NCBI RefSeq assembly: GCF_038397715.1
Contig: NZ_CP151633.1
Span: 2,418,001 to 2,482,000 of the forward strand
From: Microbacterium sp. LWO14-1.2
GTDB lineage: Bacteria; Actinomycetota; Actinomycetes; Actinomycetales; Microbacteriaceae
DNA: 64,000 nt
Reading direction: 5' to 3'
Shown: positions 1,023-15,987 of the stretch, piece after piece
How positions within the stretch are numbered: position 1 is the stretch's first letter
Layout: each line of letters opens with the position of its first letter
Program-made: the position numbers and the translations under genes
The notes under the pieces: model-generated
Told to the model about the DNA's origin: nothing
The model's database searches: none
What the model saw: the letters and a program-made list of their open reading frames with translations, nothing else

Positions 1023-1025
1023 TAC

Positions 1026-1042
1026 TTAGATAGTCTATCTAA
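1026..1042. promoter_or_regulatory. MarR operator overlapping the marR promoter
   Basis: TTAGATAGTCTATCTAA is a perfect inverted repeat (two 8-bp arms around one base), an AT-rich island in very GC-rich DNA. On the minus strand it contains TAGACT (1037-1032), a good -10 box 9 bases before the ATG at 1022. Transcription would therefore start within a few bases of the start codon, and a bound MarR dimer would cover the -10 box. Confidence 0.75.
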
Positions 1043-1151
1043 TCTCCGCGCCCGGACAAGGGCTTGCTCCGCCCACCGGTTCGTCGGATCAGACGAAGCG
1101 CCGCATTCTGTTCCGTCGGAGCGGACCAACGTCGATCGGCGACGCGGTGCC

Positions 1152-1157
1152 TAGAGT
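1152..1157 (+). promoter_or_regulatory. -10 box TAGAGT, leaderless-type promoter
   Basis: TAGAGT, six bases (gaggcc), then ATG at 1164. No ribosome-binding site is needed if transcription starts at or next to the A of ATG. This spacing recurs at many genes in the window. Confidence 0.6.
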
Positions 1158-1163
1158 GAGGCC

Positions 1164-2585
1164 ATGCAGAGCCCCCACGCGGTCGGTGAACACCTGCGGT
1201 CCACTCTCGGATCCCTGGTCGAGGCGCGCGGAGTGCCCGCGGCATCCGTAGCGGTCCTCGTCGACGGCGAGATCGTCACCCACGCCGCCGGACTCCTCAG
1301 CACGGCGACGCGGATCGAGGCGACGACGGACGCCGTGTTCCAGATCGGATCGATCACGAAGGTCTGGACCGCGACGCTCGTGATGCAGCTGGTGGACGAA
1401 GGGCTCGTCGACCTCGACGCACCCGTCCGGACGTACCTGCCGGAGTTCGCGCTCGCCGACGAGGCCGCCGCCGCGGCGATCACCGTGCGGCACCTGCTCA
1501 GCCACCGCTCGGGCATCGAGGGCGACATCTTCACCGACACCGGTCGCGGCGACGACGCCGTCGAGAAGTACGTCGAGCTGCTCGCCGAGGCGGCGCAGAT
1601 CTTCGAACCGGGCGCGCTGTTCTCGTACAGCAACGCGGGCTACGTGGTGCTGGGCCGGCTCATCGAGCGGCTGCGCGACACGAGCTGGGAGCAGGCGCTG
1701 CTCACGCACCTCGCGACACCGCTCGGCCTGCGCAGCGTCTCGCCCAGCCCGTACGAGGCGATCCTGCACCGCGTCGCAGTCGGACACGTGGATGCCGGAG
1801 ACGGCGGCGAACCGCAGCCCGCACCGTTCTGGGCGATGGCGCGCTCGAACGAGCCGGCGGGGTCGATGCTCGCGATGACCGCCGAGGACCTGGCCGTGTT
1901 CGCCCGTGCGCACCTCCGTGCCGCGGCTGGTTCGCCTGCGTCGGATGAGGAGCAGGCGGTCGTCTCGCAGGCCGCCGCGAACGCGATGCGCACGACGGAG
2001 GTGCGCCTGCCGCGCGTCGCCGGCATGGGAGCGGCCTGGGGCCTCGGGTGGGAGATCGATCGCGACGAGGACTCCGTGCTGTTCGGACACGACGGCAACA
2101 CGGTGGGCCAGTCGTCGTTCCTGCGGATCGCGCCGGCGGCGGGTGTCGCCGTCGTGCTGCTCACGAACGGCGGCGACGGTGCCGGCCTCTTCCACGACCT
2201 CGTGGATCCGCTGCTGCGCGAGCTCACCGGAGCGGGTCTTCCCGAGGCGCCCGTGCCGTCTGCAGACGCGGCGCCCGCCGCGGCATCCGAGTCGTCCGCC
2301 CCGGACGTGAGCGGCTACCTCGGCGTGTACGCGAACTCCACCGTCGAGATGGAGGTCTCGCAGGACGCGGAGGGCCGACTCTGGCTCGAACAGCGCCCCA
2401 CGCCCGAGCTGCGCGCACTCGGCGCCGAGCCCTCGACCGACGAGTTCGTGCCCTACGGCGATGCCTCGCTGATCGCCCGCGAACGCAAGGACGGCCTGCA
2501 CCTCGTGCTCGCGTTCCTCGAACCGGCCGACGACGGCCGCGCCTCGTACATCCACTTCGGCCGCGCCGTGCCGCGGTCGCGCTGA
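1164..2585 (+). CDS. Beta-lactamase-fold serine hydrolase (class C / D-aminopeptidase-like)
   Basis: A 473-residue penicillin-recognising enzyme of the AmpC/D-aminopeptidase/esterase superfamily. The catalytic SxxK is S63-I-T-K66 in FQIGSITKVWTAT, the second motif is Y155-S-N157, and the third (KTG position) is H309-D-G311. The segment after about residue 370 looks like the small beta-barrel domain often appended to these hydrolases. There is no signal peptide, so it probably acts in the cytoplasm. It stands just upstream of a peptide ABC transporter and is clearly paralogous to the C-terminal domain of the S9 fusion at 7924: both share FQIGSI-S/T-KVWTAT and FTDTGRGDD. Likely substrates are peptides or amides with D-residues; esters cannot be excluded. 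The start at 1164 is set by the -10 box at 1152. Confidence 0.85.
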   Translation: MQSPHAVGEHLRSTLGSLVEARGVPAASVAVLVDGEIVTHAAGLLSTATRIEATTDAVFQIGSITKVWTATLVMQLVDEGLVDLDAPVRTYLPEFALADEAAAAAITVRHLLSHRSGIEGDIFTDTGRGDDAVEKYVELLAEAAQIFEPGALFSYSNAGYVVLGRLIERLRDTSWEQALLTHLATPLGLRSVSPSPYEAILHRVAVGHVDAGDGGEPQPAPFWAMARSNEPAGSMLAMTAEDLAVFARAHLRAAAGSPASDEEQAVVSQAAANAMRTTEVRLPRVAGMGAAWGLGWEIDRDEDSVLFGHDGNTVGQSSFLRIAPAAGVAVVLLTNGGDGAGLFHDLVDPLLRELTGAGLPEAPVPSADAAPAAASESSAPDVSGYLGVYANSTVEMEVSQDAEGRLWLEQRPTPELRALGAEPSTDEFVPYGDASLIARERKDGLHLVLAFLEPADDGRASYIHFGRAVPRSR

Positions 2586-2654
2586 CCATCCGAACCCTCG
2601 TCGCCACGCGGCGTGCACCCCGATAAGCACGAACCCACTGCCTGGAGGAACGTC

Positions 2655-4232
2655 ATGACACCGAATCGCACCGCCGTCACCGCCGTCGTCGCCGTGACCG
2701 CTCTCGCCACCGTGCTCACCGGATGCGGCTCGGACGGAGGAGGGGGTGAGCCGGTGAAGGGAGGCACCTTCACCGAGATCCTCGGCTCCGATCCGGGCAG
2801 CCTCGACCCCCAGCTCTCCGCGGGAAGCGCGCTGTTCGACATCAGCAAGCTCGCCTACGACACGCTCGTGAGCGTCGACGCCGACGGCGAGGTGCGCAGC
2901 CAGCTCGCCACCGAGTGGGAGGTCGACGGCCTCACCGCGACCCTGAAGATCCAGGACGGCATCACCTGCGGCGACGGCACGCCGTTCACCGCCCAGAGCG
3001 CGGCCGACAACCTGAACTGGATCTCCGACCCCGCGAACCAGAGCGGCTTCCTCGGGGCCTTCCTGCCCGTCGGGGTGACCAGCACCGCCGAGGGCGACAC
3101 GGTCACGATGACCCTGTCGAGCCCGTCGCCGTTCCTGCTGCTCGGACTCTCCGGCCTGCCCATGGTGTGCGACACCTCGCTGAACGACCGCGACGGGCTC
3201 GCGGCCGGCACCGACGGCACCGGCCCGTACGTGCTCACCGAGGCCGTGCCGAACGACCACTACACGTACGAGCTGCGCGAGGACTACGCGTGGGGTCCCG
3301 GCGGTGCCACGGTCGACGAGGAGGGCATCCCGGCGAAGGTGAACGTGCGGGTCGTCTCCGACGGCACCACCGCGGCGAACCTGCTGCTCTCGGGCGAGGC
3401 GAACGCGGCCCAGCTCACCGGCCCCGACGCCGACCGCGCGATCAGCGCGAACCTCTTCCAGCGCGAGGGCACCGCGATCGCCGGCGAGCAGTGGTACAAC
3501 CACGCCGAGGGGCACCCGACGAGCGACCCGGCCGTGCGACTGGCGCTCACCCAGGCGGTCGACTTCGACGAGCTCGCGAACGTCATGACCGCGGGCAAGG
3601 GCGGACCGGCCACGGCCCTCGCCGTCGTCGAGCCGACCGTCTGCACGTACGACGCGATCTCCGAGTCGCGCCCGGAGTTCGACGTCGACGCCGCGAACGC
3701 GACTCTCGACGAGGCAGGATGGGTGCGTGGATCGGACGGCGTGCGCGCCAAGGACGGGCAGCGCCTGAGCCTGACGTTCCTCTACGAGAACAGCCTGGGT
3801 GCCGCCGCCGCGGCGGCCGCCGAGCTCGCGCTCTCGGCATGGGAGGAGATCGGCGCCGAGGTCGACGGCAAGCAGCAGGACGAGACCGCGCTGCTGGAGG
3901 CGACGTTCAGCACCGGAGCCTGGGACATCGGCTGGCTCACGCTCAGCGTCAACAGCCCCGACCAGGCCATCGGCTTCGTGAGCGGCACCGTGCCGCCGGA
4001 GGGCTCGAACTTCTCGGCGATCGAGAACGCCGAGTACACGGATGCCGTGACGCGCGCGTCCGAGCTGAACGGCAGCGAGGGCTGCGACGTCTGGCAGGAG
4101 GCCGAGAGCGCGCTGTTCGCCGCAGCGGACCTCGTGCCGTTCGCCAACGCCACCGTGTACATGTTCGGCAACGGCGCCGAGTTCGACTGGACGGGCGTGA
4201 TCGAGCCGACCAGCATCCGCCTGGTCGGCTGA
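2655..4232 (+). CDS. Peptide ABC transporter substrate-binding lipoprotein
   Basis: A 525-residue family 5 solute-binding protein (DppA/OppA type). The start at 2655 is preceded by GGAGG at 2644-2648. A lipoprotein signal ends in the lipobox LTGC with the lipidated Cys at residue 24, followed by a Gly/Ser-rich linker. The mature part begins GGTFTEILGSDPGSLDPQL, the usual opening of SBP_bac_5 proteins. It would capture oligopeptides outside the membrane for the permeases at 4274 and 5266, 41 bases downstream. Longer readings into upstream DNA lack a ribosome site and would bury the signal peptide. Confidence 0.92.
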   Translation: MTPNRTAVTAVVAVTALATVLTGCGSDGGGGEPVKGGTFTEILGSDPGSLDPQLSAGSALFDISKLAYDTLVSVDADGEVRSQLATEWEVDGLTATLKIQDGITCGDGTPFTAQSAADNLNWISDPANQSGFLGAFLPVGVTSTAEGDTVTMTLSSPSPFLLLGLSGLPMVCDTSLNDRDGLAAGTDGTGPYVLTEAVPNDHYTYELREDYAWGPGGATVDEEGIPAKVNVRVVSDGTTAANLLLSGEANAAQLTGPDADRAISANLFQREGTAIAGEQWYNHAEGHPTSDPAVRLALTQAVDFDELANVMTAGKGGPATALAVVEPTVCTYDAISESRPEFDVDAANATLDEAGWVRGSDGVRAKDGQRLSLTFLYENSLGAAAAAAAELALSAWEEIGAEVDGKQQDETALLEATFSTGAWDIGWLTLSVNSPDQAIGFVSGTVPPEGSNFSAIENAEYTDAVTRASELNGSEGCDVWQEAESALFAAADLVPFANATVYMFGNGAEFDWTGVIEPTSIRLVG

Positions 4233-4273
4233 GAGCCCCGCGCCGCCCTCGACCCTCGGATCGAATCGACGAC

Positions 4274-5269
4274 ATGACGACACTGACCACCCGCATCGCC
4301 GAAGACGACAAGCGCGTCGGCGACCACCGCTGGCTGAGGTTCGCACTCCGCCGCACCGGTCGGCTGCTCGTCTCGCTGTGGATCCTGATCACGGCATCCT
4401 TCCTCATGATCCACCTGGTGCCCGGGGATCCGATCCGCGCGGCGCTGGGGCCGACGGCCCCGGCCGCGGTCGTCGAGGCGCGGCGCGAATCGCTGGGGCT
4501 CAACGACCCGATCTGGCAGCAGTACCTCGACTACATCCGCGGGGTGTTCACGGGGGACCTCGGGGTGTCGATCGGGTCGCAGCTGCCCGTCGCCGACACG
4601 ATCGCGCAGCGGCTGCCCGCCACGCTCACCCTCGCCCTGCTGGCCTTCGTGCTCGCCGTGCTCATCGCCATCCCGCTGGGCATGGCTGTCGCCGTGGCGA
4701 CGCAGCGGGGCAGGGCCCGGGGCCTCGAGGTGGGCTTCAGCTCGACGAGCGTCGTGATCGGATCGATCCCGGACTTCCTCCTGGCGGTGGCCCTCGTTGC
4801 GGTGTTCGGCGTCCAGCTCGGATGGCTGCCGGTCGCCGGGCGCGAGGGACCGCTGTCGTACATCCTCCCCGTGCTCGCGCTCGCGCTGGGGCCGGCGGCG
4901 ATCCTCGCCCGCATCCTCCGCATCGAGGCGCTCTCCGTGCTCGATGCCGACTTCGTGCGCACCGCGCACGCCAAGCGGCTGCGGGCGCCGCGCATCACCC
5001 TGCGACACGTGCTGCCGAACGCCGTGACCGCGACGCTCACGCTCGGCGGGCTGCTGCTGAGCGGCCTCGTCGCCGGCACCGTGCTCGTCGAGACGGTGTT
5101 CGCGTGGCCGGGGCTCGGCAGCACGATCGTCAGCTCGATCCAGACCAAGGACTACCCGCTCGTGCAGGGCACCGTGCTCGTCTACGGCGTGGGCGTGCTG
5201 CTCGTGAACACCCTCGTCGACGCCGCGCTCGCGGTGCTCGACCCCCAGTCGACGGCGGCCGAGGCATGA
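4274..5269 (+). CDS. Peptide ABC transporter permease (DppB-like)
   Basis: A 331-residue inner-membrane permease. It has the long N-terminal helix ending HLVPGDPIRAALG, typical of DppB/OppB, then five further hydrophobic segments. The EAA-type loop includes FVRTAHAKRLRAPRITLRHV, which docks on the ATPase. The frame stays open far upstream, but codons before 4274 belong to the shadow of the binding-protein gene, and MTTLTTRIAEDD is the sensible start. Its stop overlaps the next gene's ATG (ATGA), indicating tight co-translation with the fused permease-ATPase. Confidence 0.9.
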   Translation: MTTLTTRIAEDDKRVGDHRWLRFALRRTGRLLVSLWILITASFLMIHLVPGDPIRAALGPTAPAAVVEARRESLGLNDPIWQQYLDYIRGVFTGDLGVSIGSQLPVADTIAQRLPATLTLALLAFVLAVLIAIPLGMAVAVATQRGRARGLEVGFSSTSVVIGSIPDFLLAVALVAVFGVQLGWLPVAGREGPLSYILPVLALALGPAAILARILRIEALSVLDADFVRTAHAKRLRAPRITLRHVLPNAVTATLTLGGLLLSGLVAGTVLVETVFAWPGLGSTIVSSIQTKDYPLVQGTVLVYGVGVLLVNTLVDAALAVLDPQSTAAEA

Positions 5270-7122
5270 GGCGCACACTCGCGAACATGATGCGCACCCC
5301 GCTCGGGGCGCTGGCGCTGGCGCTGCTCGCGATCGTCGTGCTCACCGCCATCGTCGCCCCGCTCATCTGGGGCGAGCAGGCCGATGTCACCGACACCGGC
5401 GACCTGCTGGCCGGCCCCTCGGCCGAGCACCTCATCGGCACCGACAACCTGGGCAGGGACCTGCTGCTCCGCACGATCGTGGCGACGCGTCTGTCGATCG
5501 TGCTCGCGCTGCTCGCGACGCTCGTCGCCGTCGTCGCCGGCCTCATCCTCGGGGTGGCCCCGCTGCTGCTCGGGCCGGTGCTCGGCCGCGCGATGACCTG
5601 GTTCACGGGAATCGCGGTCGCGTTCCCCGGACTGCTGCTCGCCCTCTTCTTCGCGGCGATCTTCGGCAGCACGGCCACGGCCGCGGTCTTCGCGCTCGGC
5701 CTCGCCGGCGCCCCGTCGTTCGCCCGCCTCTGCCAGAACCTCATCGCCGGCATCGAGGCGCGCGACTTCGTGGCGGCCGCCCGCGTCGGCGGAATCGGCC
5801 GCGTACGCGTGCTGTTCCGGCACATCCTCCCGAACATCGGCGAGCCGCTCATCGTCAACTCGACCATCGGCGCCGGCGGCACCCTGCTCGCGTTCGCCGG
5901 ACTGTCGTTCCTCGGTCTCGGCGTGCAGCCCCCGGAGTACGACTGGGGACGCCTGATGATGGACGGCCTGCGCGGCATCTACGCGAACCCGCTCGCCGCG
6001 CTCGCCCCCGGTCTGGCGGTCGTGATCGCCGGACTCGCCTTCAACCTCACCGGCGAATCGGCCGCCCGCAGCCTTGGTCTCGCCGACGACGCGCTGCTGC
6101 GCACCGCGACTCGCATCCGCCGCCGCACGCCCTTCGGCCGCACCGCCGCGCAGGCCGTGGCGCCCGCGGCGGAGGACGGGGCGGTGCTGGAGGTCGAGGA
6201 CCTGCGCGTCGACTTCGAGGCCGCCGACGGCACCGTGGTGCACGCCGTGCGGGGGATCGACTTCCGGGTCGGCGCCGGGGAGATCGTCGGGATCGTCGGC
6301 GAGTCAGGGTCTGGCAAGTCGATGACCGCGCTCGCCGTCGCGCGGCTCGTGAACCCGCCGGGGCGGGTCACGGCATCCGCTCTGCGCTTCCTCGGTGTCG
6401 ATCTGCAGGCGGCCGAGGGTCCGGCTCTGCGCCGACTGCTCGGCACCTCGATGGCGATGGTGTTCCAGGACCCCATGTCGTCGTTCAACCCGACCATGCG
6501 GATGGGCGCCCAGCTCGCCGAGGTCGCCACCGAGCACGCCGGCCTGAGCCGACGGGAGGCGCTCGACCGGGCGGCCGACCGGCTCGCCGCCGTGCGCATC
6601 ACCGCGCCGAAGCGCCGCGTGCGGCAGTACCCGTACGAGTTCTCCGGCGGCATGCGCCAGCGCGCGATGATCGGCATGGGCCTCATGGTGTCGCCGCGCC
6701 TCATCATCGCGGACGAGCCGACGACGGCCCTCGACGTGACGGTGCAGAGCCAGGTGCTCGATCTGCTGCGCGCGATCCGCGACGAGGACGGCGCGTCGAT
6801 CCTCTTCATCAGCCACGACATCTCCGTGGTGGCCGAGCTGTGCGACCGCGTGCTCGTGATGCGCTCCGGGGAGATCGTCGAGTCGCTGCCCGCGACCGAC
6901 CTGTCGTCGGCGCGGCATCCCTACACGCGGGCGCTGCTCGCCGCTGTGCCGCACATGGCGACCGACCTCGACCGCCCCCTCGCGACCCTCGCGACGCTCG
7001 CGGCGGAGGAGGGGCGGGCAGCGGACGCCGGCAGCACGGCGGACGCCGAGGCGGATGCCGCGGGCGGGCCGGAGCCGGTGGATGCCGCCGGCGGCGATCA
7101 CGAGGAGGTGGGCACCCGATGA
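5266..7122 (+). CDS. Peptide ABC transporter permease-ATPase fusion (DppC-DppD)
   Basis: One 618-residue polypeptide carries a DppC-type permease (about 1-285) and a DppD-type ATPase (about 305-580). The permease part shows LIGTDNLGRDLLLR and the loop FVAAARVGGIGRVRVLFRHI. The ATPase has Walker A GESGSGKS at 345-352, signature FSGGMRQR from 459 and Walker B ending D483-E484. Residues 580-618 are a low-complexity Ala/Asp/Gly tail. In most bacteria these are two proteins; the fusion fixes one membrane half to one nucleotide-binding half. It overlaps its neighbours on both sides by ATGA, so the transporter is a single translational unit. Most likely imports oligopeptides. Confidence 0.9.
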   Translation: MRRTLANMMRTPLGALALALLAIVVLTAIVAPLIWGEQADVTDTGDLLAGPSAEHLIGTDNLGRDLLLRTIVATRLSIVLALLATLVAVVAGLILGVAPLLLGPVLGRAMTWFTGIAVAFPGLLLALFFAAIFGSTATAAVFALGLAGAPSFARLCQNLIAGIEARDFVAAARVGGIGRVRVLFRHILPNIGEPLIVNSTIGAGGTLLAFAGLSFLGLGVQPPEYDWGRLMMDGLRGIYANPLAALAPGLAVVIAGLAFNLTGESAARSLGLADDALLRTATRIRRRTPFGRTAAQAVAPAAEDGAVLEVEDLRVDFEAADGTVVHAVRGIDFRVGAGEIVGIVGESGSGKSMTALAVARLVNPPGRVTASALRFLGVDLQAAEGPALRRLLGTSMAMVFQDPMSSFNPTMRMGAQLAEVATEHAGLSRREALDRAADRLAAVRITAPKRRVRQYPYEFSGGMRQRAMIGMGLMVSPRLIIADEPTTALDVTVQSQVLDLLRAIRDEDGASILFISHDISVVAELCDRVLVMRSGEIVESLPATDLSSARHPYTRALLAAVPHMATDLDRPLATLATLAAEEGRAADAGSTADAEADAAGGPEPVDAAGGDHEEVGTR

Positions 7123-7868
7123 GCGAGCTCGTGTTCGATCAGGTCTCGGTGCGCTACGGCGTCGGCCGCGGAGCCATGACCGCGGTGGACCGCGTCTCGC
7201 TCACGGTGCCCGAGGGCGGCGTGACCGGCGTCGTCGGCGAGTCGGGGTCGGGCAAGTCGACCCTGGCCAGGGCGGCCGTCGGGCTCGTGCCCCTGCACTC
7301 GGGGCACATCCTGCTCGACGGCGCACCGATCCCGAGGCGGGGGCCTCGCCCTCTGCAGATGGTCTTCCAGGACCCGTACTCCTCGCTCGACCCGCGGATG
7401 CCGGTCGGGGCGAGCATCGCCGAGATGATGCCGTCCGGCATGACCAGACGGGAGCGGGCCGCCGAGGCCGCGCGACTGCTCGAGCTCGTGCAGCTCGACC
7501 CCGACAAGGCCGATGCGCGTCCCTCGCGGTTCTCGGGCGGTCAGCGGCAGCGCATCGCGATCGCCCGCGCGCTGGCCGGCAGGCCGCGCGTGCTCATCGC
7601 CGACGAGATCACGTCCGCGCTCGACGTGCTCATCCAGGGCGCGATCCTCAACCTGCTCCGGGAGCTGCAGGACGAGCTCGGGTTCTCGATGCTCTTCATC
7701 TCGCACAACCTCGCGGTCGTGCGGTACGTCGCCTCGCACATGGCCGTCATGCGTGACGGCCGCGTGGTGGAGCAGGGGCCGACGGACGCCGTGCTCGACG
7801 ATCCGCACGACGCGTACACGCGGCAGCTGCTCGCCGCGATCCCCCGACCGATCCAGTACACCCCCTGA
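7119..7868 (+). CDS. Peptide ABC transporter ATPase (DppF-like)
   Basis: A 249-residue nucleotide-binding subunit. Walker A GESGSGKS is at 40-47, the Q-loop sits in MVFQDPYSSLDPRMPVG, the signature is FSGGQRQRI and Walker B is VLIADEITSALD. At this position DEI replaces the commoner DEP; the catalytic Glu is kept. It is shorter than typical DppF (about 320) because it lacks the C-terminal oligopeptide-transporter extension. The ATG overlaps the stop of the permease-ATPase fusion. With the fused ATPase it would form the heterodimeric motor of the importer. Confidence 0.9.
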   Translation: MSELVFDQVSVRYGVGRGAMTAVDRVSLTVPEGGVTGVVGESGSGKSTLARAAVGLVPLHSGHILLDGAPIPRRGPRPLQMVFQDPYSSLDPRMPVGASIAEMMPSGMTRRERAAEAARLLELVQLDPDKADARPSRFSGGQRQRIAIARALAGRPRVLIADEITSALDVLIQGAILNLLRELQDELGFSMLFISHNLAVVRYVASHMAVMRDGRVVEQGPTDAVLDDPHDAYTRQLLAAIPRPIQYTP

Positions 7869-7923
7869 CCGCCAGACCCACACGCCAGCCGGTGCCACGA
7901 GCGCCGCAACCGAAGGAGTCCCC

Positions 7924-10900
7924 GTGACCCGCAGAATGAGTATCGACGACGCTCTCGCTCTGACCGTGCCGAGTCAGCCGACGCTGTCGCCCGCCGGAGA
8001 CCGCGTCGTGTACGTGCTCGGCGCGACAGACGTCGACGAGGACCGCAGCACGAGTTCGCTGTGGATCGCCGACGAGAGCGGCACCAGGGCGCTCACGCGC
8101 GGTCCCTCCGACTCGAGCCCGGTCTTCTCGCCCGACGGCGCCCACGTCGCCTTCCTCCGTGACGGCCAGCTGTGGACGCTGCCGCTCGGCGGCGGCGAGC
8201 CCCAGCAGCGCACGACCCTCCCGCTCGGCGCCGGTGTGCCCGTGTGGAGCCCCGACAGCACGCGCATCGCCTTCACGGCGGCGGTCGTGCCGCGCTCCGC
8301 GCCCGATGCCGGGGAGAGCGACGAGCAGCGCGCGGAGCGCGAGAAGGCCCCGATCGTCACGAGCGGGATCGACTACCTCGTCGACGGCGCGTGGTTCACC
8401 CGCGGCGTGACCGACCAGCTGCACGTGCTCGACCTGGCCAAGGGCCGCGTGCGACGCCTCACCGACGGCGTCTCCGGCGTCGGGAGCCCCGCATGGTCGC
8501 CCGACGGCAGCGTCCTCGCCTACGTCGCGCGTCCCGACGGCGCCGACGACCTCGCCTTCCGCTCGTCCGTGCAGGCGCTCGACCCCGCGGACCCCGCAGC
8601 CCGCCCCCGCACCCTCGCGTTCGCCGACGGCTACGCGGGCACGGTCTCGTTCACGCCCGACGGCAGCCGCCTCGTCGTCATCGGCTGGAACGGCGAGCCG
8701 GAGGGGCACGCCGGGCTCTTCGTCGTCGACCTCGACTCCGGCGACGTCGTCGACGCGGCGGGCGATCTCGACCGCAACGTCATGCCCGGCGCCCCCGCCT
8801 ACCCCGGCGCGCTGCCGCAGGTCACGGCCTCCGGCGACATCCTCTTCGCGATCCGCGACCGCGGCGCGACGCACCTCTACGCCGTGCCCGTCACGGGCGG
8901 TGCGCCCCGACTCGTGCACGGCGGCACCGATGAGGTCGTGAGCGGCCTGTCGGTCGCGGGCGACACCGCGGCGATCGCGCTCACGACGCCGACGTCGTTC
9001 GGCGAGATCCTGCGCCTCGACCTCGCGGCGGGCACGAGCGCCGTGCTCACCGCGCACGGCGACGCGCCGGATGGCGCCGAGCTGTTCGTGCGCGAGAGCC
9101 GTGAGTTCACGATCAGCGACGGCACCGTCGTGCAGGGCTGGATCGTGCGCGATCCCGCCGTCACGGGCGCGACCCCGCTGCTCGTCGACATCCACGGCGG
9201 GCCGCACAACGCATGGAACGGCGCCGTCGACGAGATGCACCTCTACCACCAGCAGCTCGCGGCCGATGGATGGACGATCCTCATGATCAACCCGCGCGGC
9301 AGCGACGGGTACGGCGAGGACTTCTGGCGCGGGGTGAACGCCGCCTGGGGCGTCTCCGACGCCAAGGACTTCCTCGAGCCGGTCGACGAGCTCGTCGCGG
9401 AGGGGACGGCGGATGCCGCTCGCCTCGCGGTCGCCGGCTACAGCTACGGCGGTTACATGACGGCCTACCTCACGGGTCACGACGACCGGTTCGCCGCCGC
9501 GGTCGCCGGAGGCATCGTCGCCGACCTGTTCAGCATGGGCGGCACGAGCGACGACGCCCACATGCTCAGCGTGCTCGAGCTGGGCGTCATGCCGTGGGCC
9601 TCGGCCGACCGCGACACGCTCACCGCGATGTCGCCGTACTCGGCCGTCGAGAACGTGACGACGCCGACGCTCGTCCTGCACGGAGAGAAGGACCTGCGAT
9701 GCCCCGTGCACCAGGCGCAGCAGTGGCACTACGCGCTGCGCGAGCGCGGGGTCCCCACCGAGCTCGTCATCTACCCGGGCGGCAGTCACGTCTTCCCGCT
9801 GCTCGGCGCACCGAGCCACCGCGTCGACTACGCGCGCCGCATCGTCGACTGGGTCGAGCGCTTCGCCGGGAGCACCCGCGGTGCGCGCCCGGCGGCGATC
9901 GACGCCGCGCACTGGCAGCACCGGCTCGACGAGCTCGCGCGGCTGCACGACGTGCCGGGTGCGCAGCTCGGCATCCTGCGCTACGACCCCGAGGGGCGTG
10001 ACGAGGTCGTGACGGCCGCCACCGGCACGCTCAACGCCGACCTGCCAGCGGCGTCGGCGACCGTGCTGCCCGACTCGGTCTTCCAGATCGGCTCGATCTC
10101 GAAGGTGTGGACGGCGACGGCCGTCATGCGGCTGATCGAGCAGGGGGCCTTCACGCTCGATACCCCGGTGGTCGAGATCGTGCCCGACCTGCAGCTCGCG
10201 ACCGAGGAGTTCACCAGGGGGGTCACGGTGCGCCATCTGCTCACCCACACGAGCGGCATCGACGGCGACGTGTTCACCGACACCGGCCGCGGCGACGACT
10301 GCCTGGAGAAGTACACGGAGCTGTTCCCCGAGATCGGCGTGAACCACCCGCTCGGCGCGACCTGGTCGTACTGCAACTCGGGCTTCTCGTTGCTGGGGCG
10401 CGTGATCGAGAGCGCCACGGGCAGCGTGTGGGATGCCGCGATGCGCGACCTGCTCTTCACGCCGCTCGGACTCACGCACACCGTGACTCTGCCCGAGGAG
10501 GCGATCCTGCACTCCGCCGCCGTCGGACACGTCGAGAGCGGGGAGAACCCCGTCATCGCACCGGTGTGGGCGCTGCCGCGCTCGCTCGGCCCGGCCGGAC
10601 TCATCACCGCGCGGGCGGCCGACGTGCTCGCGTTCGCGCGGCTGCACCTGGCCGGCGGCGTCGCGGCGGACGGCACCCGTCTGCTCGAGGAGTCCACGGT
10701 CGCCGAGATGCAGGCGTTCCAGGCCGAGGTGCCGGACAAGCACATCCTCGGCGACTCGTGGGGCCTCGGCTGGATCCGCTTCGACTGGAACGGCGAGCGC
10801 CTGTACGGGCACGACGGCAACACGATCGGCCAGGCCGCGTTCCTGCGCGTGCACGCCGAGTCGGGTGTCGCCGTGACGCTGCTGACGAACGGCGGCCACA

Positions 10901-11289
10901 CGCGGGATCTCTACGAGGACCTCTACCGCGAGATCTTCGCCGAGCTCTCCGGCGTGACCATGCAGGCCACCGTCCAACCGCCCGCTGAGCCGGTCGAGGT
11001 CGACATCGCGCCGTTCGTCGGCACGTACGAGCGCGCCTCGGTGCGGGCGGAGGTGTTCGTCGGCGACGACGGCCCGATGCTCCGCACCACCGTGCTCGGA
11101 CCTCTCGCCGAGCTCGAGCCCGACCCGGTCGACGAGTACGCGCTCACGCCGTACAGCGACGGCGTCTTCGCGCTCCGCGCCCCCGGGACGCAGACGTGGA
11201 TGACGGCGACGTTCTACACGCTGCCGACGGGCGAGGAGTACCTGCACTTCGGCGCACGGGCGACCCCGAAGGTGTCGAGCGGCGCATGA
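7924..11289 (+). CDS. S9 prolyl-oligopeptidase fused to a beta-lactamase-fold hydrolase
   Basis: A 1121-residue two-enzyme fusion. Residues 1-about 400 form a beta-propeller with repeated W/F-SPDG-type strands (FSPDGAHVAF, WSPDGSVLAY). Residues about 400-655 are the S9 alpha/beta-hydrolase, with nucleophile S507 in GYSYGGYMT, D590 in GEKDLRCP and H622 in GGSHVF. From about 660 a complete penicillin-recognising domain follows: S724-I-S-K727, Y816-C-N818 and H963-D-G965, with a C-terminal barrel. GTG 7924 is preceded by GAAGGAG at 7912. No signal peptide is seen, so imported peptides are the likely substrates. It lies 55 bases after the transporter and overlaps the M20 gene by ATGA. Both active sites look intact. 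Inference: one half cleaves L-peptide bonds and the other D-containing ends. Confidence 0.85.
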   Translation: MTRRMSIDDALALTVPSQPTLSPAGDRVVYVLGATDVDEDRSTSSLWIADESGTRALTRGPSDSSPVFSPDGAHVAFLRDGQLWTLPLGGGEPQQRTTLPLGAGVPVWSPDSTRIAFTAAVVPRSAPDAGESDEQRAEREKAPIVTSGIDYLVDGAWFTRGVTDQLHVLDLAKGRVRRLTDGVSGVGSPAWSPDGSVLAYVARPDGADDLAFRSSVQALDPADPAARPRTLAFADGYAGTVSFTPDGSRLVVIGWNGEPEGHAGLFVVDLDSGDVVDAAGDLDRNVMPGAPAYPGALPQVTASGDILFAIRDRGATHLYAVPVTGGAPRLVHGGTDEVVSGLSVAGDTAAIALTTPTSFGEILRLDLAAGTSAVLTAHGDAPDGAELFVRESREFTISDGTVVQGWIVRDPAVTGATPLLVDIHGGPHNAWNGAVDEMHLYHQQLAADGWTILMINPRGSDGYGEDFWRGVNAAWGVSDAKDFLEPVDELVAEGTADAARLAVAGYSYGGYMTAYLTGHDDRFAAAVAGGIVADLFSMGGTSDDAHMLSVLELGVMPWASADRDTLTAMSPYSAVENVTTPTLVLHGEKDLRCPVHQAQQWHYALRERGVPTELVIYPGGSHVFPLLGAPSHRVDYARRIVDWVERFAGSTRGARPAAIDAAHWQHRLDELARLHDVPGAQLGILRYDPEGRDEVVTAATGTLNADLPAASATVLPDSVFQIGSISKVWTATAVMRLIEQGAFTLDTPVVEIVPDLQLATEEFTRGVTVRHLLTHTSGIDGDVFTDTGRGDDCLEKYTELFPEIGVNHPLGATWSYCNSGFSLLGRVIESATGSVWDAAMRDLLFTPLGLTHTVTLPEEAILHSAAVGHVESGENPVIAPVWALPRSLGPAGLITARAADVLAFARLHLAGGVAADGTRLLEESTVAEMQAFQAEVPDKHILGDSWGLGWIRFDWNGERLYGHDGNTIGQAAFLRVHAESGVAVTLLTNGGHTRDLYEDLYREIFAELSGVTMQATVQPPAEPVEVDIAPFVGTYERASVRAEVFVGDDGPMLRTTVLGPLAELEPDPVDEYALTPYSDGVFALRAPGTQTWMTATFYTLPTGEEYLHFGARATPKVSSGA

Positions 11290-12425
11290 GCATCCCGTCC
11301 CCGCTCGTCGTCGACGCGCTCACGGAGGCAGCCCTCGTCTCCACGATCCGCCGGCTGATCGAGTGCGAGTCGCCCTCCGGCGACGACGCGGCCGTCGCTC
11401 GGTCGGCCGACGTCGTCGCCCAGGTCGGCACCGAGCTGCTGGGTGTCGAGCCAGAGCGTCTCGTGATCGACGGCTGCACGCATCTGCGGTGGCGCTTCGG
11501 CGCCGCGACGCGGGTGCTGCTGCTGACCCACCACGACACCGTGTGGCCGCACGGCACCCTCGACCGGCTGCCGTTCGGCATCGTCGACGGAGTGCTGCGA
11601 GGGCCGGGGTCCTTCGACATGAAGACGGGGCTCGCCATGGTGCTGCACGCGGTCGCCGCGCTCGACGACCGCGACGGCGTGACCGTGCTCGTCACGGGCG
11701 ACGAGGAGACGGGGTCGGAGAGGTCCCGCGCGCTCATCGAGGAGACGGCGCGCGGCGCCGCAGCGGTGCTCGTCACCGAGGCCTCGGAGAACGGGGCCTG
11801 GAAGGGCGCGCGCAAGGGCGTCGGCATGTACGAGATCGCGGTGCGGGGCAGGGCGGCGCACGCGGGTCTCGAACCGGAGAAGGGCGTCAACGCGACGGTC
11901 GCGCTCGCGCACCTGGTGCTCGCGATCGGTGCTCTCGCCGATGCGGATGCCGGCACGACCGTCACCCCGACGCGCGCCGACTCCGGCACCACGGGCAACA
12001 CCGTGCCCGCCGAGGCGACGCTGCGCATCGACGTGCGGGCGTGGTCGGCGGCCGAGCTCGACCGGGTGGATGCGGCGCTCCGCGCCTACGCCTCGCCCGT
12101 GCCCGGCGCGGCGATCACCGTGCACGGCGGCATCAACCGCCCGCCGCTCGCGCGGGAGATGTCGCAGGCGCTCGCCGACCTCGCGGCGAGGCTCGGTGCG
12201 GCGTACGGACTGGGTGACGTGCGGGCGGTCGCCGTCGGCGGGGGCAGCGACGGCAACTTCACCGCGGGTGCGGGGGTGCCGACCCTCGACGGCATGGGGG
12301 CCGTCGGGGGCGGTGCGCACGCCGACGACGAACACGCGATCGTGGCGGAGATCCTGCCCCGAACGCGACTGCTGGCCGACATGGTCGCAGAGATCTCGAG
12401 AACGGACGGACCATGGCAGAACTGA
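11286..12425 (+). CDS. M20 family metallohydrolase (candidate N-succinyl-L-amino acid desuccinylase)
   Basis: A 379-residue M20/ArgE-DapE-type amidohydrolase. Metal and catalytic residues are visible: H82-x-D84-T-V, bridging D111 in GSFDMKTG, and the E140-E141 pair in GDEETGS; the lid domain follows (GRAAHAGLEPEKG). Family reactions are hydrolysis of N-acyl amino acids or dipeptides. The position matters: immediately downstream, overlapping, lie a GNAT acyltransferase and an N-succinylamino acid racemase-like enzyme. This M20-GNAT-racemase trio is the known gene set for irreversible D-to-L amino acid conversion via N-succinyl intermediates, in which the M20 enzyme removes succinate from the L-form. 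A general peptidase such as CPDG2 is the alternative. Confidence 0.85.
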   Translation: MSIPSPLVVDALTEAALVSTIRRLIECESPSGDDAAVARSADVVAQVGTELLGVEPERLVIDGCTHLRWRFGAATRVLLLTHHDTVWPHGTLDRLPFGIVDGVLRGPGSFDMKTGLAMVLHAVAALDDRDGVTVLVTGDEETGSERSRALIEETARGAAAVLVTEASENGAWKGARKGVGMYEIAVRGRAAHAGLEPEKGVNATVALAHLVLAIGALADADAGTTVTPTRADSGTTGNTVPAEATLRIDVRAWSAAELDRVDAALRAYASPVPGAAITVHGGINRPPLAREMSQALADLAARLGAAYGLGDVRAVAVGGGSDGNFTAGAGVPTLDGMGAVGGGAHADDEHAIVAEILPRTRLLADMVAEISRTDGPWQN

Positions 12426-13222
12426 TGCACGACGACGCGGTCGTGTCGTCCGCGCAGCGCGATGCGGATTGCGCCGCCGCGGCATCCGGCGTCTCGATCA
12501 GAGAGCTCGGGGCGGTCGGCGAGCATGCCGAGGCCATCGCCCTGCTGTCACGCATCTGGCGGCGCTCGCCCGAGAACCCCGTCGTGCCGCCCGAGCTCAT
12601 GCGGGCGCTGAGCAAGGCGGGCAACTACATCGGCGGCGCGTTCGCCGACGACCGCCTCGTCGGGGTCGCGATCGCCTTCCATGCCGATCCGGAGCGCCAC
12701 GCGCTGTACAGCCACATCGCCGGGATCTCCGCGGAGAGCGCCGGGCGCTCGATCGGATTCGCGCTCAAGCAGCACCAGCGGGCCTGGGCCCTCGGCCGCG
12801 GCATCGATGCGATCGAGTGGACGTTCGACCCGCTCGTCGCCCGCAACGCCCACTTCAACATCACCAAGCTCGGCGCGCGGCCGCAGGAGTACCTCTCGGA
12901 CTTCTACGGCGCGATGACCGACGGAGTCAACAGCGACGACGAGACCGACCGGCTGCTCATGCGGTGGGAGCTCCGCGACGCGGGCGTCGCCCTGCGCGCG
13001 CACGGCAGCTCCCCGCAGCCGGAGACGCGGATGCCTGGTGACCGCACCGTCGCGGTGCCGCCCGACATCGAGCGCACACGGCGGGAGGACAGGGCGGAGG
13101 CGCAGGTCTGGCGTCTGCGCGTGCGCGAGCAGCTCACCCGCGCGCTGGACGCCGGCGGACGGATCGTCGGATTCGACCGCACCGAGGGGTACATCATCCG
13201 ACCGGAGAGGACCACGGCATGA
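12413..13222 (+). CDS. GNAT acyltransferase (candidate D-amino acid N-succinyltransferase)
   Basis: A 269-residue GNAT-superfamily protein of the COG3375-like group. Supporting segments include GGAFADDRLVGVAIAFH (central strands) and SHIAGISAESAGRSIGFALK, which occupies the acyl-CoA pyrophosphate loop, then WTFDPLVARNAHFNITKLG, a conserved stretch of this group. In Geobacillus-type operons such proteins succinylate D-amino acids from succinyl-CoA, feeding N-succinylamino acid racemase. Here it is sandwiched between the M20 gene (13-base overlap) and the racemase gene (ATGA overlap). ATG 12425, overlapping the M20 stop as TGATG, is an equally good start and would shorten the protein by four residues. 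Confidence 0.75.
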   Translation: MAELMHDDAVVSSAQRDADCAAAASGVSIRELGAVGEHAEAIALLSRIWRRSPENPVVPPELMRALSKAGNYIGGAFADDRLVGVAIAFHADPERHALYSHIAGISAESAGRSIGFALKQHQRAWALGRGIDAIEWTFDPLVARNAHFNITKLGARPQEYLSDFYGAMTDGVNSDDETDRLLMRWELRDAGVALRAHGSSPQPETRMPGDRTVAVPPDIERTRREDRAEAQVWRLRVREQLTRALDAGGRIVGFDRTEGYIIRPERTTA

Positions 13223-14325
13223 AGATCGACGGGATCGAGCTGCGACGGGTGGCGATGCCGCTCGTCTCCCCGTTCCGCACATCGTTCGGCACGCAGACGG
13301 CGAAGGACATCCTGCTCGTGCGGGCCGTCGTGGACGGCGTCGACGGGTGGGGCGAGTGCGTGACCCTGCCCGACCCCGTGTACTCGCCCGAGTACACCGA
13401 GGGCGCGGTCGACATGATCCGCCGCTACATCGTGCCCGCGCTGACCGGAGCCGAGATCTCGGGCGCGCACATGATCGGCGAGCGGCTCGCTCCCTTCAAG
13501 GGACACCGGATGGCGAAGGCCGCCGTCGAGACGGCCGTGCTCGACGCCGAGCTGCGCTCCGAGGGGCGGTCGTTCGCCCGCGAGCTGGGCGCTGTGCATG
13601 ACACCGTGCCGTGTGGCGTGTCGGTGGGCATCATGGACGAGATCCCGCGGCTGCTCGACGCGGTCGACGGGTATCTCGCCGAGGGGTACGTGCGCATCAA
13701 GCTCAAGATCGAGCCGGGGTGGGACGTCGACGTCGTCCGCGCGGTGCGAGAGCGCTTCGGCGACGAGGTGCTGCTGCAGGTCGACGCGAACACCGCCTAC
13801 ACCCTGCGGGACGCGCAGCACCTCGCCCGCCTCGACGACTTCGGCCTCCTCCTGATCGAGCAGCCGCTCGAGGAGGAGGACATTGTGGGGCACGCCGATC
13901 TCGCGCGGATGCTGAAGACGCCGATCTGCCTGGACGAGTCGATCACCTCGGCGCAGACCGCTGCCGCCGCGATCCGCCTCGGCGCCACGAGTGTCATCAA
14001 CATCAAGCCGGGCCGTGTCGGCGGATACCTCGAAGCGCGCCGCATCCACGACCTCGCGGTCGCCCAGGGTGTGCCGGTCTGGTGCGGCGGCATGGTCGAG
14101 AGCGGCATCGGCAGGGCGGCGAACGTCGCACTCGCCGCCCTGCCCGGATTCGTGCTGCCCGGCGACGTCTCCGCGAGCGACCGCTTCTACCGCGTCGACC
14201 TCACCGAACCGTTCGTGATGCGCGACGGGAGCCTCTCGGTGCCGCAGGGTCCGGGGCTCGGAGTGACCCCGATCCCGGAGATCCTCGACGAGCTCACGAC
14301 CTGGACCGAGTGGCTTCCGATGTGA
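13219..14325 (+). CDS. N-succinylamino acid racemase / o-succinylbenzoate synthase family enzyme
   Basis: A 368-residue enolase-superfamily enzyme of the MenC/NSAR branch. The acid-base pair is K161-L-K163 and K263; metal ligands are D189 (VDANTAYT), E214 (IEQPLEEED) and D239 (LDES). KPGR places Arg at 266, a residue I recall as characteristic of promiscuous NSAR/OSBS enzymes and linked to racemase activity. The numbering coincides with the Amycolatopsis enzyme as I remember it. No menaquinone genes are near; an M20 hydrolase and a GNAT acyltransferase are, so racemisation of N-succinyl-D-amino acids is favoured over the OSBS reaction. Last gene of the operon. Confidence 0.85.
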   Translation: MKIDGIELRRVAMPLVSPFRTSFGTQTAKDILLVRAVVDGVDGWGECVTLPDPVYSPEYTEGAVDMIRRYIVPALTGAEISGAHMIGERLAPFKGHRMAKAAVETAVLDAELRSEGRSFARELGAVHDTVPCGVSVGIMDEIPRLLDAVDGYLAEGYVRIKLKIEPGWDVDVVRAVRERFGDEVLLQVDANTAYTLRDAQHLARLDDFGLLLIEQPLEEEDIVGHADLARMLKTPICLDESITSAQTAAAAIRLGATSVINIKPGRVGGYLEARRIHDLAVAQGVPVWCGGMVESGIGRAANVALAALPGFVLPGDVSASDRFYRVDLTEPFVMRDGSLSVPQGPGLGVTPIPEILDELTTWTEWLPM

Positions 14326-14328
14326 GGT

Positions 14329-14334
14329 TATGCT
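14329..14334 (+). promoter_or_regulatory. -10 box TATGCT, leaderless-type promoter of the PucR gene
   Basis: TATGCT, seven bases (cgccgat), then ATG at 14342. It begins only four bases after the racemase stop codon, so the regulator has its own promoter inside the 3' end of the operon. It also argues against the in-frame ATG at 14330, which falls within the -10 box. Confidence 0.65.
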
Positions 14335-14341
14335 CGCCGAT

Positions 14342-15964
14342 ATGAGCGCGCTGTCACGGTCGAGCTGGGGTCGCGTGATCGACGATCTCGGTGTGACGCT
14401 GCTCGACGTGGAGTACGGCCGCATCGACGTCGACCGGCAGATCGGCGGCATCGTCATCCATGATCCGCTCGACGAGCCGGTCTATCCGCAGGGCGCCGTC
14501 GTGCTCGCGGTCGCGCTGCGCGACGCCGACGAGCTCGCGGCGCTCGTGCGCGAGGCGGGGGAGCGGGGAGCGGTGGCCGTGGTCGTCCGCGCCTCGACCG
14601 AGCTGCCGCAGGTCGTGCGGGATGCCGCCGACGACGCAGGCATCGCGATCCTCGGCCTCGCCCGCGGCGCGACGTGGACGCAGCTGGCCGCCCTCCTGCG
14701 CTCGCTGCTCGCGGAGGACGACGTGGGGCAGACGCCCGCGGAATCGCTGGGCGGGGTGTCGTCGGGAGACCTCTTCGCCGTGGCGAACGCGATCGCCGCG
14801 CTGCTCGACGCGCCCGTGACGATCGAGGACCGGTCGTCGCGGGTGCTCGCGTTCTCCGGCGGGCAGGAGGCGGCCGACCCCTCGCGCGTCGAGACCATCA
14901 TCGGCCGGCAGGTGCCCGACCGCTATGCCCGCGTGCTCACCGAGATGGGCGTCTTCCGCGACCTGTACCGCGGCGACGCCCCGGTGGTCGTCGACCCCGT
15001 CCACCTCGGCGAGGGCGTCTCGACGCAGCGCATCGCGATCGCCGTGCGCGCGGGCGACGAGGTGCTCGGCTCGATCTGGGCCGCCATGGACGGGCCGCTC
15101 ACCGAGGAGCGCTCAGCGACCCTGCGCGACGCGACCAAGCTCGTGGCCCTGCACCTGCTGCGGATCCGCGCGGGAGCCGACGCGCAGCGCAGCCTGCGCG
15201 CCGAGCTCGTCAGCCGCGCACTCGACGGCGGGCCCGATGCGCAGGACGCGCTCGGACGCCTCGGCCTCGCCGGCCGCCGCGTCTGGGTGATGGCGACGGC
15301 GCTCGCGCCGCGCGGCGAGGACGGCACCGAGCACGACTCCATCGCCGAGCGCGAACGCCTCACCGACGCCCTCGCGCTGCACCTCTCCGCCGTGCAGCAG
15401 GGCGCCGCCGTCGCCCTGGTCGGCGACACCGTCTACGGCATCCTGCCCGTCGCGGACGCCGCGGCCGAGGATCGCTCCGTCCGCCTCGCCGAGGACTTCC
15501 TGCAGCGGGTCGGCGACCGCATCCCCGCCGTGATCGGCATCGGCCGCCCCGCGGCGACCGTCGCCGAGATCGCGCGCTCGCGCGCCGAGGCCCACCGTGC
15601 GCTGCGCGTGGTGGTCGAACGCGCCCCTCGGCAGCGCAGCCTGGCCCGCATCGCCGACGTCGAGACCGACTCCCTGCTGCTCGACCTCCGCGACCTGCGC
15701 AGCGCACGCGGCGACCTCGCCTCGGGTCCGCTCGCCCGGCTGATCGACTACGACACGCGCCACGACGCGCACCTCGTCGACACCCTGACGGCCTGGCTCG
15801 ACCACTTCGGCGACGTCACCGCGGCCGCCGCCGCATGCTTCGTGCACGCCAACACCTTCCGCTACCGGCTCCGGCGGGTCGCCGAGGTCGGACGCCTCGA
15901 CCTCGACGACGCCGACGCCCGGTTCGCCGCGATGCTCGAGATCCGCACACTGCCCGTGCGCTGA
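14342..15964 (+). CDS. PucR family transcriptional regulator
   Basis: A 540-residue regulator of the PucR/CdaR type. The N-terminal region (about 1-130) resembles the PucR sensor domain, with VLAVALRDADELAALVREAG. A middle GGDEF-like region follows. The C-terminus carries the HTH_30 domain: LVDTLTAWLDHFGDVTAAAA, then FVHANTFRYRLRRVAEVGRL. Family members control purine, amino acid or peptide catabolism from nearby promoters. Sitting directly after the racemase, it is the natural regulator of the peptide/D-amino acid operon; the effector is unknown. The start at 14342 follows the -10 box at 14329. Confidence 0.85.
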   Translation: MSALSRSSWGRVIDDLGVTLLDVEYGRIDVDRQIGGIVIHDPLDEPVYPQGAVVLAVALRDADELAALVREAGERGAVAVVVRASTELPQVVRDAADDAGIAILGLARGATWTQLAALLRSLLAEDDVGQTPAESLGGVSSGDLFAVANAIAALLDAPVTIEDRSSRVLAFSGGQEAADPSRVETIIGRQVPDRYARVLTEMGVFRDLYRGDAPVVVDPVHLGEGVSTQRIAIAVRAGDEVLGSIWAAMDGPLTEERSATLRDATKLVALHLLRIRAGADAQRSLRAELVSRALDGGPDAQDALGRLGLAGRRVWVMATALAPRGEDGTEHDSIAERERLTDALALHLSAVQQGAAVALVGDTVYGILPVADAAAEDRSVRLAEDFLQRVGDRIPAVIGIGRPAATVAEIARSRAEAHRALRVVVERAPRQRSLARIADVETDSLLLDLRDLRSARGDLASGPLARLIDYDTRHDAHLVDTLTAWLDHFGDVTAAAAACFVHANTFRYRLRRVAEVGRLDLDDADARFAAMLEIRTLPVR

Positions 15965-15975
15965 CGGCGCTCGGG

Positions 15976-15981
15976 CAGAAT
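15976..15981 (+). promoter_or_regulatory. -10 box CAGAAT, leaderless-type promoter of cutC
   Basis: CAGAAT, six bases (ggacgg), then ATG at 15988. No Shine-Dalgarno sequence is recognisable. Confidence 0.5.
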
Positions 15982-15987
15982 GGACGG

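Follow-up and report, generated by a model that had tools for sequence, protein, structure and literature searches.

A ten-gene operon in Microbacterium

We analyzed a 64,000-nucleotide stretch of the genome of Microbacterium sp. LWO14-1.2 (NZ_CP151633.1, positions 2,418,001 to 2,482,000; hereafter the window), a genome that is complete at 3.78 Mb in a single contig. The subject is an operon in which a peptide-type ATP-binding cassette (ABC) importer and peptidase genes stand together with an enolase of the N-succinylamino acid racemase (NSAR) type. A sequence-only reading had placed this gene set at 1152–15964 and proposed that it salvages peptides containing D-amino acids. Open reading frame (ORF) and Pfam scans bore out the gene content: all parts are present and intact, in ten co-directional genes on the plus strand between 1164 and 15964 (Table 1). 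The linkage by ATGA overlaps was found at four of the nine junctions (5266–5269, 7119–7122, 11286–11289 and 13219–13222), the M20 and GNAT genes share a further overlap of 13 bp, and 4 bp separate the NSAR gene from the PucR gene. Both predicted beta-lactamase-fold (S12) domains are there, one as a free-standing protein and the other as the C-terminal part of the S9 protein, whose gene starts with GTG and has an ATG at 7936. The PucR regulator was confirmed by two Pfam domains; its best NCBIfam relative, AdeR (136 bits), fell below cut-off. Promoter and terminator scans of 900–16300 found nothing, against 0.3 and 1.2 sites expected from shuffled sequences.

Table 1. Genes of the operon, with window coordinates and supporting matches
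Feature	Position	Strand	Evidence
S12 (AmpC-fold) hydrolase, 473 aa	1164..2585	+	PF00144, 228 bits
Substrate-binding protein (SBP) family 5 lipoprotein, peptide/nickel-type ABC importer	2655..4232	+	PF00496, 167 bits; LTGC lipobox by eye
ABC permease, DppB/OppB type	4274..5269	+	PF00528 + PF19300
ABC permease-ATPase fusion, DppC-DppD type, 618 aa	5266..7122	+	PF00528 + PF00005, single ORF
ABC ATPase, DppF/OppF type	7119..7868	+	PF00005, 104 bits; oligo_HPY fragment below its cut-off
S9 (acylaminoacyl/dipeptidyl-peptidase type)-S12 (AmpC-fold) fusion, 1121 aa	7924..11289	+	PF00326 + PF00144, single ORF
M20 metallopeptidase, carboxypeptidase G2-like; presumed N-succinyl-L-amino acid desuccinylase	11286..12425	+	PF01546 + PF07687
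GNAT-fold N-acyltransferase; presumed D-amino acid N-succinyltransferase	12413..13222	+	PF00583, 20.6 bits (cut-off 20.7)
N-succinylamino acid racemase, enolase superfamily (MR/MLE type), NSAR/OSBS subfamily	13219..14325	+	1sja match, 585.9 bits
PucR-family regulator, presumed local	14330..15964	+	PF13556, PF17853 above cut-off; PF07905 below

A MarR gene on the minus strand (582–1022), divergent from the first operon gene and 141 bp away, was considered and dropped as an operon part. MarR occurs in only four of the 40 genus stretches described below, those with the four closest NSARs, and some of the other stretches end too near the operon for the gene to be visible.

The enolase resembles N-succinylamino acid racemases

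Residues 1–366 of the enolase give a gapless alignment with its closest solved relative, the N-acylamino acid racemase 1sja, which we take to be an Amycolatopsis enzyme. For the residue counts here and below, hits were dropped if coverage was below 90%, if the score was low, or if the sequence held a stop or an unread base, and the window sequence was included. Seven residues (K161, K163, D189, E214, D239, K263 and R266) do not vary among the 117 aligned sequences (117 of 117); D189, E214 and D239 are presumably the metal ligands, and R266 presumably the residue reported to favor racemase activity. The catalytic lysines of the window enolase are K163 and K263, such a lysine pair being given as the catalytic bases of NSARs in the available text of PMC8142540.

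A separate actinobacterial menC lies elsewhere in the same genome (G000:C1:1055247; 472 bits, cut-off 288), and menC scored above cut-off in all 39 further genus genomes examined, the match in G148 holding one stop. The enolase is thus dispensable for menaquinone synthesis. Taken together, the gapless match, the preserved catalytic residues and the separate menC support its earlier assignment as an NSAR-like enzyme without a required menaquinone role.

Public records label NSAR genes as menC or o-succinylbenzoate synthase (OSBS), and the genus genomes checked carry another menC; this labeling is probably a systematic misnaming.

The S9 and S12 domains keep their catalytic residues

The first S12 protein carries the motifs SxxK (S63/K66), YxN (Y155/N157) and HxG (H309/G311) and has a C-terminal beta-rich domain. 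With the best hit per locus taken for each domain, so that the two sets overlap, the motif residues were identical in 50 of 50 aligned sequences for this protein and in 49 of 49 for the fusion domain. The S9 triad was identical in 39 of 39. These alignments supersede a count by narrow regular expressions, in which SxxK was matched in 30, YxN in 41 and HxG in 40 of 43 S12b sequences, and the S9 Ser and Asp patterns in 38 and the His pattern in 34 of 38. By eye, neither peptidase protein (genes at 1164 and 7924) shows a signal peptide, which points to cleavage in the cytosol.

S9 enzymes are usually L-specific, and the S9 half of the fusion is likely to be so. The S12 domains may instead be D-specific: the signature SxxK/YxN/HxG is described for a D-aminopeptidase (PMC3347556) and for the D-peptidase Pab87 (PMC2651629) in the available text of those papers. 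The AlphaFold model of the first S12 protein has a predicted local distance difference test score (pLDDT) of 93.1. Behind its closest fold match, which is taken up below, came SurE (also solved with D-Leu), Pab87, a DL-peptidase, Ulm16 and the R61 DD-peptidase, with D-amino acid amidase also among the matches. The ten best are 23–32% identical to the window protein, and the fold search gave a TM-score of about 0.6 to 2qmi. None of the three CubicO motifs (YAEAF/L, FFYLN and ERY) was found in either S12 domain of the window. Among the matches listed, the sources that name the S9-S12 fusion use "serine hydrolase" or "CubicO group peptidase".

The acyltransferase, the M20 enzyme and the importer

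The GNAT protein gave a confident AlphaFold model (pLDDT 94.7) that matches GNAT structures. The fold search brought up general acetyltransferases, from which neither acyl donor nor acceptor could be told, and there was no sequence match among solved structures at E values up to 0.1. The best solved relative of the M20 protein is carboxypeptidase G2, and eight positions, presumably with metal, catalytic or binding roles as in other M20 enzymes, are identical in 67 of 67 sequences. These positions fit an N-acyl-L-amino acid enzyme without proving one. From fold and conserved residues, we presume that the GNAT enzyme succinylates D-amino acids and that the M20 enzyme desuccinylates the L form.

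The importer consists of an SBP family 5 (SBP5) binding protein, two permeases and two ATPases, with one permease fused to one ATPase. The fusion is repeated in 16 of the 17 loci checked.

The operon recurs within the genus

With the NSAR as query, 142 of 198 genus genomes match at E ≤1e-60. For a comparison of neighborhoods we took 40 loci from 39 genomes, comprising most of the closest loci and a hand-picked remainder. A part was counted as present at 100 bits (60 for GNAT) and the importer with at least three of four permease/ATPase hits; duplicate records (L047 = L083, L053 = L135) were counted once each here and in the named loci below. The full operon occurs in order in 12 of the 40 loci (L043–L046, L048, L051–L053 and L055–L058), the most distant showing 42–68% identity, and the importer, S9, S12, M20 and GNAT occur together in 15. 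S9 and S12 are joined in one ORF at 15 of the 17 genus loci checked, and the remaining two show no S9. Relatives of the second S12 domain were found in 31 of the 198 genomes, all of them among the 142 with NSAR. At the genus loci where GNAT alone accompanies NSAR, the NSARs are 58–64% identical to that of the window. Gene-tree distances are correlated (r 0.67–0.94, n 34–105, above all 500 permutations); these correlations mostly reflect shared descent and carry little weight.

At four loci whose NSARs are about 60% identical to the window's (L067, L072, L074 and L075), GNAT lies up to 12 kb away. L072 has a PF04199 cyclase-family gene and a POT-family peptide transporter near NSAR; a gene similar to the former lies near NSAR in L067 and L075, and one similar to the latter in L074, both assignments coming from a domain scan of the L072 genes only. 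These four loci possibly represent a second, peptide-fed version of the pathway.

The association holds from either end

Looking beyond the genus, we examined the best 80 of 592 relatives in a scan of named genomes, all 80 actinomycetes by title (the named loci). As 60 of these stretches reach at least 19 kb and 20 are shorter, the counts are lower bounds. At 72 of the 80 loci the GNAT gene ends no more than 400 bp before the NSAR start; M20 is found up to 3.5 kb upstream at 50 loci, and PucR within 3 kb at 37. Anywhere in the stretch, the importer was found at 35 loci, S9 at 25 and S12 at 42. All of GNAT, M20, importer, S9 and S12 are present at 20 loci, which include Nocardioides, Actinomadura, Lentzea, Kibdelosporangium, Arthrobacter, Streptomyces and Amycolatopsis. 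The sequence-only reading had called for such a neighborhood comparison, and this set of five parts recurs in both samples, at 15 of 40 genus and 20 of 80 named loci. At the Amycolatopsis kentuckyensis locus (L128) the order is M20-GNAT-NSAR-S12-SBP-permeases-ATPases-S9-S12; thus, an operon of this kind holds a relative of the well-studied Amycolatopsis enzyme, although the strain from which 1sja comes lies outside the sample.

At four Nonomuraea loci (L095, L100, L126 and L129), a different peptide-type ABC importer lies upstream of NSAR, with permeases 34–37% and ATPases 44–50% identical to those of the window.

In the converse search, meant to free the choice of loci from NSAR, the S9 domain was compared with 296 genomes of the class at 1e-120, which gave 28 matches in 26 genomes and 8 of 114 genera. 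All 26 matches outside the genus of the window, in 24 genomes, were then examined for the other parts, with NSAR counted at 200 bits or more: NSAR was present at 22, GNAT at 23, M20 at 23, the importer at 24, S12 at 24 and PucR at 21. Three of the four NSAR-negative stretches (L215, L216 and L225) end in the GNAT gene; at the edge of the fourth (L228) lies a partial NSAR hit in reverse orientation, and no GNAT or M20 was seen there. Two of the 22 (L233 and L234) have NSAR with no GNAT or M20 hit and with fewer than three of four permease/ATPase hits. Import and peptidases are therefore tied to NSAR whether the search starts from NSAR or from the S9 domain.

The S9 genes at L233 and L234 are second paralogues of their genomes; they lie close to NSAR and PucR and lack the S12 fusion seen at most loci.

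For controls, no counted part was found in 20 genus menC loci, 20 hand-picked genus stretches and three other stretches of the window. A further 20 stretches, chosen by hand from nine genomes in other genera of the class, held one ABC importer (L237) and no other counted part. The full set of importer, S9, S12, M20 and GNAT was seen in 0 of 60 control stretches, among which the menC loci represent one syntenic place and are thus not 20 independent controls.

Neighboring families hint at D-residues

Clustering of neighbor genes brought up two recurring families that had not been foreseen, M19 dipeptidases (PF01244; best solved relative, dipeptidase 3id7) and NF006560 amidohydrolases, whose best solved relatives are the N-acyl-D-glutamate deacylase 3gip and the D-aminoacylase 1m7j (the D-acylase family). 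L-D dipeptides are known substrates of M19 enzymes. With a threshold of 100 bits, each family is present at 10 of the 80 named loci; clustering gave 12 of 80 for each, and we prefer the 100-bit counts. At least one of S12, M19 and the D-acylase family occurs at 52 of the 80 named loci, and none of the three in the 60 control stretches. The gathering of three unrelated enzyme families with D-linked relatives at one kind of locus is our strongest argument for D-residues, yet it is an association. Weaker D-acylase-family hits (27–34% identity) at 15 of the 26 S9 loci were not counted; one reaches 100 bits, and two that were scanned are Amidohydro_3 members below the NF006560 cut-off.

Class A beta-lactamase-like genes (PF13354) were seen in or beside two related operons (L094:13027–13914 and L223:11084–11911), near class C-fold genes.

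The core of NSAR and GNAT also occurs on plasmids. On a Deinococcus radiodurans plasmid NSAR is accompanied by GNAT and two short binding-protein genes, on a Sulfitobacter plasmid NSAR and GNAT adjoin an annotated amino acid ABC importer, and on a Priestia plasmid they stand with an M20 enzyme of the TIGR01891 subgroup. Larger versions, with several serine hydrolases and importers of the peptide type, occur on plasmids of Streptomyces sp. NBC_00257 and Arthrobacter sp. ERGS1:01. From this handful of loci, it would seem that the core is combined with varying front ends.

In Deinococcus radiodurans MP1 (L203, 10480–11357), the two short binding-protein genes are adjacent to each other and lie between GNAT and NSAR; they are perhaps one gene in two pieces in that record. 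A Microbacterium plasmid (L208:10405–13165) has a GNAT relative near an annotated alanine racemase, and the gene table of that record, which is incomplete, lists no NSAR in the stretch.

A proposed route from mixed peptides to L-amino acids

We propose, with a probability of roughly 70%, that the operon serves the catabolism or salvage of peptides containing D-residues. The SBP5-type importer would bring oligopeptides in, and the cytosolic S9 half and the two S12 domains would degrade peptides of mixed chirality to free amino acids. The D-amino acids set free, probably those of a bulky or hydrophobic kind that no pyridoxal phosphate (PLP) racemase of the cell would handle, would be N-succinylated by the GNAT enzyme with succinyl-CoA. 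NSAR would then racemize the N-succinylamino acids, and the M20 enzyme would hydrolyze the N-succinyl-L form to succinate and the L-amino acid; this hydrolysis would make the conversion run one way, from D to L. The PucR protein probably controls the operon.

Several observations weigh against this proposal. The binding protein matches nine NCBIfam models (NikA, OppA, DppA, GsiB and others), each below cut-off, so that the importer cannot be named Opp or Dpp, and SBP5 importers carry nickel and other solutes too; the predicted cargo is nevertheless peptide. In the fold search, the first S12 protein came closest to IS11, which is called a thermophilic esterase. The best NCBIfam model for the enolase is the OSBS model TIGR01928 (304 bits, cut-off 200.65). 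The window M20 enzyme is carboxypeptidase G2-like and that of the Priestia NSAR locus belongs to another subgroup, so the former need not be a desuccinylase. Many loci lack the peptide part: in the genus, five of 40 have only M20 and GNAT, 11 only GNAT, one only the importer and one nothing, and among the named loci 12 of 80 have only GNAT, eight only M20 and GNAT, and four nothing. Completeness was judged by presence and not by strand, and L088, L131 and L153 have parts reversed or reordered. Finally, the controls comprise 20 stretches at one syntenic site and 40 at hand-picked places.

Could the two halves of the operon be joined by regulation rather than by substrate? The GNAT-NSAR-M20 core would then serve free D-amino acids, with the importer and peptidases providing general peptide nutrition under shared control. 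The named loci with a core and no peptidases fit this view, as do the Sulfitobacter core with its amino acid importer, the Deinococcus core with its binding-protein genes and the usual L-specificity of S9 enzymes. However, NSAR accompanies S9 at 22 of the 26 loci found from the S9 side, which means that the S9-S12 fusion is not a free-standing nutrient peptidase. Moreover, the peptidase-like proteins among the scanned representatives of recurring neighbor clusters were M19, D-acylase-family and class A beta-lactamase-like proteins, with no ordinary L-aminopeptidase. We therefore consider this arrangement unlikely.

Somewhat less probable again is that the imports are N-acyl-D-amino acids, esters or other amides, D-residue antibiotics such as beta-lactam fragments included, with the AmpC-fold enzymes acting as esterases or amidases. 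The esterase at the top of the fold search, the D-acylase-family genes at 10 of 80 loci and the class A beta-lactamase-like genes in or beside two related loci are all in keeping with such substrates. Against them stand the intact peptidase domain of the S9 half, the HxG motif, the D-peptide enzymes that make up most of the next-best fold matches, and the M19 dipeptidases at 10 of 80 loci.

An OSBS role for the enolase in menaquinone synthesis, to which the TIGR01928 score and the public menC labels would point, is very improbable. We rejected it given the dedicated menC in this and the 39 other genus genomes, the lack of any menaquinone gene among the ten operon genes, and a closest solved relative that is a known N-acylamino acid racemase. 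That the set makes D-amino acids or D-peptides is hardly credible: NSAR is reversible, but the importer and its binding protein, the three peptidase domains and the M20 hydrolase all indicate breakdown, and no peptide-synthesis gene was found among the scanned representatives of neighbor clusters.

The salvage of D-residue peptides may also be part of something broader, in which actinomycetes at large eat non-ribosomal peptides of mixed chirality, the antibiotics of competitors included, with a dedicated importer supplying the S9-S12 fusion, whose two halves alternate L and D cuts. We regard this extension as possible but doubtful.

Relation to known systems

The three chemical steps have a precedent in Geobacillus, where Sakai et al. 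(Biochemistry 45:4455) reportedly described in 2006 a D-to-L pathway of NSAR, GNAT succinyltransferase and M20 desuccinylase. The window operon shares its steps and gene types and likewise has GNAT adjoining NSAR; a parallel within the Bacillota is Priestia, with M20, GNAT and NSAR together. To our knowledge, the Geobacillus pathway has no peptide importer or peptidases. The dppABCDE-ykfABCD genes of B. subtilis do combine an importer, a D-aminopeptidase and an enolase-superfamily dipeptide epimerase, and serve murein-type peptides. However, their epimerase acts on the L-Ala-D-Glu dipeptide and not on a succinylated free amino acid, their DppA is unrelated to S12, and we know of no GNAT or desuccinylase in that system.

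The gene neighbors of Pyrococcus abyssi Pab87 include a D-aminoacylase and a dipeptide ABC transporter, and its authors propose the processing of environmental D-peptides (PMC2651629). Like Pab87, the window has an S12 fold with SxxK/YxN/HxG near a peptide-type ABC transporter. Unlike the window, the Pab87 neighborhood includes a PLP aminotransferase, with no racemase named in the available text of that paper, and Pab87 belongs to the CubicO type, whose motifs the window domains lack. Fold and catalytic motif are also shared with S12 enzymes of the D-aminopeptidase, D-amino acid amidase and SurE type, from which the window differs in having one copy fused to an S9 peptidase.

The sequence-only reading had noted that it knew of no description of import, hydrolysis and epimerization in one operon. 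As an idea, the combination is not unprecedented in view of the Pab87 context and of dpp-ykf. Among the open-access papers listed in our searches, none described an operon joining peptide import, S12/S9 peptidases and NSAR, which is weak evidence of absence. The three-step D-to-L conversion was thus known, and import with D-peptide hydrolysis had been proposed for Pab87. As far as the listed open-access papers show, the novelty lies in linking the N-succinyl route to an importer and an S9-S12 fusion, and in how widely actinomycetes share this arrangement.

NSAR enzymes have been studied extensively in vitro and for biocatalysis (PMC7431475, PMC8142540, as far as their available text goes). The source of their D-amino acids in the cell is less clear, and for actinomycetes the operon suggests imported peptides as an answer. 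It also predicts functions for the GNAT enzyme, the S9-S12 fusion and menC-labeled genes that are probably outside menaquinone synthesis, and makes D-amino acid turnover testable with defined genes. If mixed-chirality peptides are indeed eaten widely, D-peptides would be ordinary food, every D-residue set free would be forced one way to L by N-succinylation, and NSAR would gain a defined physiological role in actinomycetes.

Other neighbor-gene clusters

One representative was scanned for each of six neighbor clusters and then of ten more. The latter ten comprise an FtsX permease, an aldo/keto reductase, a response regulator, a short-chain dehydrogenase, two major facilitator superfamily (MFS) proteins and four without a match. 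Some of the matchless clusters are probably antisense frames. The clusters outside the scan occur mostly in three loci or fewer, with one found in seven loci (502 aa, on the strand opposite NSAR).

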